Assembly: GCA_944331835.1 (NCBI GenBank)
Contig: CALVIU010000003.1
Coordinates: 1-46,577, forward strand
Length of the DNA: 46,577 nt
Direction of reading: 5' to 3'
Source of the DNA: an uncultured Bacilli bacterium
GTDB taxonomy: Bacteria; Bacillota_I; Bacilli_A; RF39; UBA660
Below are positions 32,966 to 35,888 of the stretch, in pieces. The notes below the pieces were generated by a model. That model saw only the letters and a program-made list of their open reading frames with translations, did not search any database and was not told the DNA's origin. A program made the translations under genes and the position numbers. Within the stretch, counting starts at the first letter, position 1. Every line of letters starts with the position of its first letter.

Positions 32966-33043
32966 GTGCAAAAAATTTCAAATAAAAAAAGGAAATAGAG
33001 AGTATTTGGGGTATATATATATATGAAGGGAGGTTTTGGACAG

Positions 33044-35092
33044 ATGAAGATTGTCCGACAACGAGATTTAAAAGATTGCGGAGTTTGCTCTTTAGCATCG
33101 ATAATTGAACATTATGATGGTTATGTTTCCTTAGAGAAACTACGACTTGATACTAAAGCATCTAATGATGGCACGACAGCTTTAAATATTATTGAAGCTA
33201 GTAAAAAGTACGGTTTTGATGCAGTAGGTATTAAAGTAGCTAATTTAAAAGATGAGAAAATTAAATTGCCAGCAATAGCACATATGGAATTAAAAAATGG
33301 AGTAAATCATTATGTAGTTATTTACAAAATTACCAATAATAAAGTAATATTAATGGATCCAGCTAGAGGTAAAGTTGTAAAAAATAAAGATGATTTTTAT
33401 GAAGAGTGGAGTCATGTCCTTTTGCTTTTTTCACCTAAAAGAAAGATAGCAATATTTAAGACTCCTAATAGTTTATTTAATATTTTTAAAAATATTGTTT
33501 GGCAAGAGAAGAAGTTGTTTGGATTAATTATTTTATGTAGTATATTTTTAATTATTTTTACAATAATTGGTAGCTACTATTTTCAGGTAATGGTCGATGG
33601 TATAACTAAAAATTATTATGTAACTTATTTAAAGATTTTAGCTTTATTTTTTGGAATAGTAGTAATATTAAAATTAATATTTGGACATCTTCGTAATTAT
33701 TTGGAAAATCATTTGAATAAAAATGTCGATGTGCTTTTAAATAGTAATTTTATCGAACATATTTTTAACCTTCCTTTAGAAGTTATCGAGAGTAGGTCTA
33801 ATGGCGAGATTATGACTAGAGTAAATGAACTTACTAATATTAAGAATTTATTTACAGATATTTTTATAACTTGTCTTTTAGATTTTTCACTCATGATACT
33901 TTCTTGCCCTTTGTTATATAGAATAAGTAATAAACTTTTTTGGACACTATTTCTTTGTTTATTACTTTATTTAGGGGTAGGAATTATTACTAGTAGGATT
34001 ATTTATAAAAAGGCATATCAAAATATTGAACTAGAAGCAAATTTTAATAATACGTTATTAGAAAATATTAATATGATTAATAGTATTAAAAATTTGAATA
34101 TTACTAGTAAGAGGCTTAAGAAAATTGAGAGTAGTTTAGTTAATCTTTTATATGATAATTATAAAGTAAATAGATTTATTAATAATGAGACTTTGCTAAA
34201 AAATACAATTAATGAGATAGGATTTTTTATTATAAATACATGGGGGTTTTATTTGATCTTTCATGGAGATTTGGAAATAACAGCTTTGATTACATTTAAT
34301 ACTTTATTGGGGTTATTTCTAGATCCAATTAAAAATTGTATTGATAGTTTGCCAAAATATAATTATGTGAAAGCAACGTTTAATAAAATTAATGACTTTT
34401 TAAGTTTAGATTTAGAGCATATGGGTAAGATAAAAAAGATTTATAATAATGGAATAACTTTTAAAAATATTACTTATTCATATGATGCATTAAACAATGT
34501 CTTTAGTAATTTTAATTTGCATATTGCAGCGGGAATGTGTGTTAGTTTGCAAGGCCCTAGTGGTTCAGGTAAATCTACTTTATGTAAAATGTTAGATAAA
34601 TATATAACTAATTATGAAGGAGAAATATTTATTGGAAATAGAAATATAAAAGATTTAAGTAAAGCAACAATAAGAGAAAATATTATCTATGTTAATCAAA
34701 ATGAGGCTTTAATATCTGGGAGTATAAAAGAAAATATTTTGTTGGATAGGAATGTAGATGATAATCGCTTTTATAAGATTTGTCATTTATGTTTAATAGA
34801 TGAAATAGTTTCCAAAAAAGTTTTACGGTACGAAACAGGTATTAGTGATGTTTCAAATAATATTTCTGGTGGCGAGAGGCAAAGAATTATTTTGGCTCGG
34901 GCTTTACTAAATGACTTTGAAATACTTATTTTGGATGAAGCATTGAGTGAAGTTGACTATAAAAAGGAAAGAATTATTATTAAAAATTTGAAGAAAATGT
35001 TTCAAGGTAAGACAATTATTTATATTACTCATAAAAAGCATAATCAATTATTTGATAAGATAATTGATTTGGGAGGTTCTAATGAATTATGA
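33044..35092 (+). CDS. Peptidase-containing ABC exporter (C39) for double-glycine peptides
   Basis: 682 aa. ATG 33044 is 10 nt after GGGAGG (33028-33033); ATG 33023 would contain that site. The N-terminal C39 peptidase has QRDLKDCGVCSLASI (C12), GVNHYVVIY (H89) and MDPARG (D105). Six membrane helices follow (about 150-400), then the nucleotide-binding domain with QGPSGSGKSTLC, VNQNEALISGSIKENIL, NISGGERQRIILARALL and ILDEALSEVD. It cuts Gly-Gly leaders and exports the peptide; two such peptides are encoded just downstream. Confidence 0.93.
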   Translation: MKIVRQRDLKDCGVCSLASIIEHYDGYVSLEKLRLDTKASNDGTTALNIIEASKKYGFDAVGIKVANLKDEKIKLPAIAHMELKNGVNHYVVIYKITNNKVILMDPARGKVVKNKDDFYEEWSHVLLLFSPKRKIAIFKTPNSLFNIFKNIVWQEKKLFGLIILCSIFLIIFTIIGSYYFQVMVDGITKNYYVTYLKILALFFGIVVILKLIFGHLRNYLENHLNKNVDVLLNSNFIEHIFNLPLEVIESRSNGEIMTRVNELTNIKNLFTDIFITCLLDFSLMILSCPLLYRISNKLFWTLFLCLLLYLGVGIITSRIIYKKAYQNIELEANFNNTLLENINMINSIKNLNITSKRLKKIESSLVNLLYDNYKVNRFINNETLLKNTINEIGFFIINTWGFYLIFHGDLEITALITFNTLLGLFLDPIKNCIDSLPKYNYVKATFNKINDFLSLDLEHMGKIKKIYNNGITFKNITYSYDALNNVFSNFNLHIAAGMCVSLQGPSGSGKSTLCKMLDKYITNYEGEIFIGNRNIKDLSKATIRENIIYVNQNEALISGSIKENILLDRNVDDNRFYKICHLCLIDEIVSKKVLRYETGISDVSNNISGGERQRIILARALLNDFEILILDEALSEVDYKKERIIIKNLKKMFQGKTIIYITHKKHNQLFDKIIDLGGSNEL

Positions 35093-35480
35093 AGAACTTT
35101 TAAATGTTCCCTATAAAACTGGAAAAATATTTATAATCATTACTATCTTTATAATAGTGGGTATTTTAGTAATTTTAAATGTTGAAATTTATGATGTTTA
35201 TAATACTTATGCTTATTATAGGGAAGGAAATATGGTTTTAAATATACCAATTAATTACTCTGATACAATTTTAAATGGGAAATATTTTAAAATAGATGAT
35301 GAAAAGGTTGATTTAGAAGTCTTATATGTGAGTGATATATTAATTAATACCGATACATTAGTTAATTATCAAGAGATTATTGTAGCTTCTAAGAATGATT
35401 ATCCGGAGAATTTAATAATCAATATTAGTATTTATTATAATAAAGAAAAAGTGCTTGATAAAATAAAGAAATTATTATAG
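35082..35480 (+). CDS. Small membrane protein of the peptide-export locus
   Basis: 132 aa from ATG 35082 (GGGAGG 35071-35076), overlapping the exporter by 11 bp. One membrane helix (about 15-38) and an extracytoplasmic beta-rich domain of about 90 residues. Position suggests a short stand-in for the HlyD-like accessory protein of such systems, or an immunity protein. No family recognised. Confidence 0.6.
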   Translation: MNYEELLNVPYKTGKIFIIITIFIIVGILVILNVEIYDVYNTYAYYREGNMVLNIPINYSDTILNGKYFKIDDEKVDLEVLYVSDILINTDTLVNYQEIIVASKNDYPENLIINISIYYNKEKVLDKIKKLL

Positions 35481-35491
35481 GGAGGTAGATA

Positions 35492-35545
35492 ATGTTTTTA
35501 AAGTATATCTTGAATTTGATAACTAAATTTATATATCCAATTTAA
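35492..35545 (+). CDS. 17-residue hydrophobic peptide
   Basis: MFLKYILNLITKFIYPI, preceded by GGGAGG 6 nt upstream. No double-glycine leader. It is amphipathic and could be a leaderless peptide, an immunity helper, or a leader ORF that couples translation to the next gene. Confidence 0.4.
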   Translation: MFLKYILNLITKFIYPI

Positions 35546-35555
35546 AGGAGGTATT

Positions 35556-35678
35556 ATGGATATTTTAAGTAAAGAAGAATTAGGAAATATAAACGGGGGA
35601 GGTAAGGCTGTGTGGTTCTTTTTGGGTGGCCTTGTATTATTTGCCCTTGGTGTATTTTGTGGATTTTTTGAAAAATAG
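35556..35678 (+). CDS. Double-glycine precursor peptide A
   Basis: 40 aa, preceded by AAAGGAGG 4 nt upstream. The leader MDILSKEELGNINGG is a classic double-glycine leader (LS-x-E-E-L-x-x-I-x-GG). Cleavage after Gly15 leaves 25 residues starting GKAVWFFLGGLV, very hydrophobic, with a GVFCG (GxxxG) motif and one Cys near the end. Bacteriocin-like or signalling peptide exported by the C39 transporter just upstream. Confidence 0.8.
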   Translation: MDILSKEELGNINGGGKAVWFFLGGLVLFALGVFCGFFEK

Positions 35679-35696
35679 TAATGGAGGTAATAATGT

Positions 35697-35843
35697 ATGA
35701 ATTTGGAAAATAAAGAGCTAGCAACTGTTGTAGGAGGAGCGATAACAGCATCTTTCTTGACGGCGGTTTTAAATATTGGCAAAACTATTTTTGATATAGG
35801 ATGTCAAATAGGAAAGAATATACGTAAGCTTGTTTTTGGCTAA
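35697..35843 (+). CDS. Double-glycine precursor peptide B
   Basis: 48 aa, GGAGG 9 nt upstream. The leader MNLENKELATVVGG ends in Gly-Gly; the mature part is 34 residues beginning AITASFLTAVLNIGKTIF, with GCQIG (GxxxG) and a cationic tail KNIRKLVFG. The pair of peptides, each with GxxxG, resembles the two-peptide class IIb bacteriocins. No separate immunity gene is evident. The ATG at 35693 gives only six codons. Confidence 0.8.
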   Translation: MNLENKELATVVGGAITASFLTAVLNIGKTIFDIGCQIGKNIRKLVFG

Positions 35844-35859: not shown

Positions 35860-35888
35860 TTGAAATGCTTAGTTCCTGATGTTATAAT
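35860..35888 (+). promoter_or_regulatory. rpsU promoter
   Basis: TTGAAA (35860-35865), 17-nt spacer, TATAAT (35883-35888): the best sigma-A promoter in the window, 33 nt before rpsU. Confidence 0.7.

Follow-up and report, generated by a model that had tools for sequence, protein, structure and literature searches.

A core two-peptide, class IIb-like secretion system with a competence-type promoter in a family of uncultured Bacilli

A gene for a C39 peptidase-containing exporter followed by two short genes with double-glycine (GG) leaders raises the question of whether an uncultured, small-genome member of the Bacilli produces a two-peptide bacteriocin and why it would have kept one. The locus is located at positions 33044-35843 on the + strand of contig C3 (GenBank CALVIU010000003.1; the whole stretch of 46,577 nucleotides that was analysed is hereafter called the window), which belongs to a 1.25-Mb, 58-contig draft genome of the RF39 group that is ~91% complete, and encodes the exporter, a 132-residue membrane protein and the double-glycine peptides A and B. 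As far as can be judged from the sequence, the genes clearly make up a two-peptide secretion unit, and a class IIb-like mechanism is strongly suggested. Together with the approximately 80 homologous loci that were compared, the locus represents a predicted class IIb-like system that is core to its family, minimal in consisting of an exporter and two peptides, preceded by a competence-type promoter and devoid of a universal immunity gene. The favoured and rather probable reading is that of a competence-linked two-peptide class IIb-type bacteriocin which forms part of a competence-like programme.

The evidence begins with the peptides themselves. In the leader of peptide A, MDILSKEELGNINGG, the GG occupies residues 14-15 with a third glycine next to it, leaving a hydrophobic mature helix of 24 or 25 residues, and the leader of peptide B, MNLENKELATVVGG, precedes an amphipathic cationic helix of 34 residues, the predicted structure of peptide B being a single long helix. 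Both mature parts contain a GxxxG motif, GVFCG in A and GCQIG in B. In an alignment of 66 A precursors the GG cleavage site and one GxxxG are nearly invariant, and among 67 B precursors the GG and one GxxxG are invariant, with one leader leucine likewise (nearly) so. The motif is found in 70 of 74 mature A sequences, compared with 33 ± 4 in shuffled sequences, and in mature B the corresponding numbers are 74 of 74 and 18 ± 4. Across the family, mature A is a hydrophobic helix of 21-37 residues with a median charge of +1, and mature B an amphipathic helix of 32-42 residues with a maximal moment of ~0.7 and a median charge of +3. With few exceptions among the complete loci, the B gene follows the A gene after a gap of between a few and some tens of nucleotides. 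As for variations in arrangement, tandem pairs in the order A'B'AB occur in a subgroup of the genus (loci L044-L048, L051 and L052), and in locus L060 an additional A-like peptide sits between A and B. Of the 66 A family members, 60 match the class IIb lactobin A/cerein 7B model TIGR03949, and the cut-off of that model, 21.5 bits, is exceeded by five of ten tested A homologues with scores of up to 32.8, though not by the A of the window.

The exporter contains the C39 peptidase, ATP-binding cassette (ABC) membrane and ATPase domains with Pfam E-values of 1e-36, 5e-29 and 5e-25, respectively, and the Gln, Cys, His and Asp residues of the C39 domain as well as the Walker residues are invariant across 76 homologues. 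The bacteriocin ABC exporter model TIGR01193 aligns over nearly the full length of the protein with 406 bits, a score below the curated cut-off of 523.85 bits. The original prediction, which had been made from the window alone, was that of a C39 exporter followed by two genes for GG-leader peptides with GxxxG motifs, and all of these elements are confirmed in the sequence.

The two-peptide locus is core to the family and not a sporadic bacteriocin cluster. Of 30 genomes from the genus, 28 have the exporter, as do nearly all of the family's other genera, and a C39 domain was detected in 86 of 88 family genomes spanning 87 genera, almost always singly and as a full exporter. Among 87 family genomes searched with profiles, 83 yielded A and 84 yielded B. 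In a larger draw for the order, where most of the 288 genomes had not been used in building the B profile, B was found in 270 genomes and in 97 of 102 genera; as every genome of this draw comes from one family, 'order' and 'family' are inseparable here. The few genomes negative for A or B may reflect incomplete drafts. In 59 genomes from other families of the class the A and B profiles gave at best leader-type partial matches, and a second GG-peptide locus was not found in the window's genome, in which the A, B and PF10439 profiles match this locus alone. A 130-residue open reading frame (ORF) with a GG-type leader is located near an ABC ATPase in the mycoplasma-like genome G089 of another family (L128:5039-5431, - strand) and resembles A and B in the leader only. 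In 43 of 81 loci the exporter is followed on its own strand, at a variable distance, by the gene for ribosomal protein S21, as expected for vertical inheritance in place. Pairwise identities of the exporter track those of S21 (r 0.78); the short peptides follow S21 weakly (r 0.33-0.39), which does not establish that the peptides follow the species tree. The loss of the small ORFs or of the GG from homologous loci had been named at the outset as the observation that would speak against the prediction, and what was found is their conservation throughout the family.

The minimal conserved unit is exporter-A-B, since the 132-residue protein, with homologues in 61 of 76 loci, is missing from ~14, and in several of the loci without it A begins directly where the exporter gene ends. 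The AlphaFold2 model of this protein (pLDDT 90.3) comprises one transmembrane (TM) helix and a beta-barrel, and the 19 highest-ranking structural matches are without exception membrane fusion proteins (MacA, BesA, ZneB, Spr0693, AcrA, MexA, CusB etc.), with Z of up to 8.3 over 92 residues for MacA, while the alignment with HlyD of the HlyB/D complex extends over 122 residues, TM helix included, at a lower Z. Because a Z of ~8 is moderate and the E-values from Foldseek alone are weak, the assignment as an adaptor rests on the consistency of the match list. The protein shares the N-terminal TM helix and the beta-barrel with HlyD and MacA, but unlike them it lacks the helical hairpin and lipoyl domains in the model and is dispensable in the ~14 loci. 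The model thus describes what is most likely a minimal, stripped-down HlyD-type export adaptor, which makes the protein a probable export accessory and not an obvious immunity protein. The immunity function that had been considered for it is accordingly unsupported and not the first choice.

Two other suggestions of the original prediction fare no better. The single cysteine of B is replaced by serine or missing in close relatives, so the proposed A-B disulfide is unsupported in this clade and was dropped; in most other genera one cysteine is located close to the C-terminus in A and in B alike. The 17-residue ORF that had been counted as a third peptide of the unit is unconserved even within the genus and was rejected in this role. 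In the nearest species it is different, degenerate or missing, and in the sister species an extra A'B' pair occupies its position, which is why the ORF is read as a possible remnant of a second peptide pair. Apart from the 132-residue protein, no dedicated immunity gene had been apparent in the original prediction, and none is recognised in the window operon. Right after B, 13 loci (L077, L079-L081, L084, L087, L089, L090, L093, L096, L098, L100 and L109) encode a small leaderless membrane protein C, which has a TM segment and ends in a B-like LGxxxG helix. Where present, C is a candidate for an immunity protein or a mimic; it is absent from the window and its genus.

What stands, and is strongly supported, is the class IIb-like two-peptide architecture. 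The locus shares with class IIb systems (TIGR03949; lactococcin G/enterocin 1071) the leader, the GG site, the short hydrophobic and amphipathic GxxxG peptides, the adjacent genes and the ABC exporter, but differs from these families in that the window peptides score below the cut-offs, no immunity gene is present and the 132-residue adaptor takes the place of a long accessory protein. Among the features that characterize the class, adjacent co-occurring precursor genes, GG leaders with a C39 exporter and GxxxG motifs in both peptides were found; the dedicated immunity gene that forms part of described class IIb clusters (PMC6957408) was not. Since this gene is missing and the activity is a predicted one, the system is not filed as a proven class IIb member.

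The link to competence comes from the promoter. The sequence 5′ of the exporter, from 32987, reads AAAAGGAAAT-AGAGAGTATTT-GGGGTAT-ATA, and the promoter pattern has one match in the window compared with 0.11 expected. Of 77 upstream regions of homologous loci, 21 contain the strict -35 (15 of the 28 from the genus and the rest from six other genera), with zero matches in the reversed control. A relaxed pattern yields a handful of matches in the whole genome, of which about six sites have a nearly identical spacer and -10. Near-identical sites are located on five other contigs, and one of them precedes comEA-comEC, identified by the Pfam HHH_3/SLBB and Competence domains; the others precede genes for a thioester-domain/SpaA surface protein, an ABC transporter, a RhuM fragment and a 114-residue protein. 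Counting that of the window, nine species of the genus have the promoter in front of comEA or comEA-comEC as well, the other eight being represented by genomes G006, G018, G029, G011, G010, G007, G013 and G023; in G029 comEC was read and comEA missed by the gene filter, and in G010 there is one intervening gene. When the two-peptide and comEA sites of seven genomes are compared, 13.1 of 18 positions after the -35 agree within a genome and 6.4 between genomes (permutation p 0.00025), where the sites were picked by eye after gathering with a pattern that fixes the -35 and TATA, so only positions after the -35 carry weight and some of these overlap TATA; the two-peptide site of G013 has one -35 mismatch. 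The -35 AAAGGAAAT is constant, and the spacer and -10 agree among the sites of one genome but vary from species to species (L150-L154, L194-L233), a variation that might reflect either a co-evolving sigma factor or copying between promoters. Genes that recur behind the same promoter encode multicopy Rpn/PD-(D/E)XK-like proteins of ~280-310 residues (L194, L196-L200, L202, L205-L208, L213, L214 and L219), one of which when tested matched PF12784, and two others had no Pfam match.

The same -35 and 11-nucleotide spacing are found in Listeria sigma-H promoters, including that of comEA (PMC4754846); the likeness to the latter covers the -35 AAAGGAWWT, the spacer and the position before comEA, while the -10, unlike in the Listeria sigma-H promoters, is not GAAT and varies by species. 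A SigH-like protein with SigH as its best match is encoded on contig C4, and a SigH-type sigma factor would presumably read the shared promoter. Extracytoplasmic function (ECF) factors are likewise encoded in the genome. SigE-, SigG- and SigK-like sporulation sigma factors are also present (contig C26: L189, L190; contig C1: L192). For the window's genus, the sharing of the promoter makes coupling to competence a well-supported prediction.

A plausible course of events can be outlined on this basis. A SigH-type sigma factor would turn on the operon together with comEA-comEC, the C39 domain of the exporter would cleave both precursors after the GG, and the transporter would export the mature peptides, with the small adaptor assisting where present. 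The hydrophobic membrane-spanning A and the amphipathic cationic B could then pair by glycine zippers in the membrane of a target cell and permeabilise it, and DNA released from the target might enter via ComEA/ComEC. The precedent for such antagonism with DNA salvage are CibAB of S. pneumoniae and CabAB of S. mitis, competence-controlled two-peptide bacteriocins (PMC13059744) that likewise consist of two GG-leader GxxxG peptides with a C39-type exporter and obey the competence sigma factor, much as the promoter here is shared with comEA. In contrast to the window system with its in-operon exporter, SigH-type promoter and lack of a universal immunity gene, the streptococcal systems rely on ComAB for export and on SigX boxes and have a dedicated immunity gene, CibC/CabC, of which no counterpart exists in the window operon. 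CibAB is universal in its species, whereas the window system is core to an entire family.

Several observations weigh against a competence-linked bacteriocin. The A and B of the window each fall below the curated class IIb cut-offs, A with 15.4 bits on TIGR03949 against the required 21.5. Most bacteriocins are not so nearly universal within a single family, and an immunity gene common to all loci was not found, only the exporter, A and B being shared. The producer has UppP, a target of some class IIb peptides, so self-protection is not explained by absence of that target, and immunity through missing UppP was rejected. The strict promoter pattern precedes the exporter in just the 15 of 28 genus loci and six other genera, its -10 deviates from the classical GAAT, and the SigH-like protein scores well under the TIGR02859 equivalog cut-off.

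As an alternative, the locus could encode an ordinary class IIb bacteriocin that has no particular connection with competence and is made and exported constitutively to inhibit competitors, with the shared element being a broad alternative-sigma promoter. The gene content and motifs would be the same, and the promoter indeed precedes unrelated genes too (PD-(D/E)XK/Rpn-type, RhuM, ABC transporter and surface protein). The exact element, however, is rare, the 1.25-Mb genome having about six sites that match it closely, it recurs at comEA, and the comEA and two-peptide sites vary together in spacer and -10, which renders this explanation unlikely. A non-antagonistic peptide pair with a role at the cell's own surface or as a signal would account for both the near-universal presence and the missing immunity gene, and for a signal the eight HATPase_c genes elsewhere in the genome leave room for a remote sensor. 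No sensor kinase gene was found beside the locus, however, and invariant GxxxG motifs in two complementary membrane helices are typical of two-peptide pores such as those of class IIb and not of signals, so this role seems quite unlikely. Self-protection by mimicry, in which protein C is the immunity protein where present and has been lost or replaced elsewhere, could supplement either a bacteriocin or a non-antagonistic function and draws on the position of C directly after B in the 13 loci and its detection with the B profile, but it is very improbable given that C is absent from the window's genus and most loci and that its detection depends on weak B-profile scores.

The features of the locus are collected in Table 1. 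On the 5′ side the unit is preceded by genes for a phosphodiester glycosidase-like protein and miaA, and inspection of the window genes revealed no mobile-element gene, sensor kinase or recognisable immunity gene beside it.

Table 1. Features of the two-peptide locus and its immediate surroundings in the window
Feature	Position	Strand	Basis or remark
SigH-type promoter-like element: -35 AAAGGAAAT, 11 nucleotides, -10 GGGGTAT	32986..33022	+	Shared with comEA
C39 peptidase-containing ABC exporter (PCAT), 682 residues	33044..35092	+	PF03412, PF00664 and PF00005 above cut-offs
Probable export accessory, 132 residues, TM helix and membrane-fusion-protein beta-barrel ('mini-HlyD')	35082..35480	+	AlphaFold2, structural matches, homologues in 61/76 loci
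17-residue ORF, probably non-functional, possible remnant of second peptide pair	35492..35545	+	Unconserved in genus
Peptide A precursor, 40 residues	35556..35678	+	Alignment of 66 sequences
Peptide B precursor, 48 residues	35697..35843	+	Alignment of 67 sequences
rpsU (ribosomal S21), downstream of peptide B	from 35921	+	Own promoter-like site at 35860-35888

No earlier description of the locus in this bacterial group was found in open-licence PMC papers, and class II bacteriocin atlases such as IIBacFinder (previewed in PMC12648078) may list the peptides without comment. The family-wide core status, the lack of a universal immunity gene and the promoter held in common with comEA-comEC all go beyond the original prediction. 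For RF39, auxotrophies have been reported (PMC6784871), as has the loss of de novo nucleic-acid synthesis (PMC13155120), and the auxotrophies could provide a motive for DNA salvage. Extended to the whole order, this would amount to a core 'kill and salvage' strategy, in which auxotrophic, genome-reduced gut bacteria puncture their neighbours and take up the DNA as a nutrient, using a toxin without a dedicated immunity gene that is expressed with the DNA-uptake channel; at this breadth the idea is tentative and somewhat doubtful. The common picture of bacteriocin clusters is one of weapons that are patchily distributed, turn over fast and come with their own immunity gene. In this large group of uncultured Bacilli with small genomes, the two-peptide system shows the constancy of a housekeeping gene. 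The peptide pair is simple enough for synthesis and testing, and the promoter tie to DNA uptake provides a testable reason for the retention of one C39 exporter by nearly every member of the lineage despite strong genome reduction.
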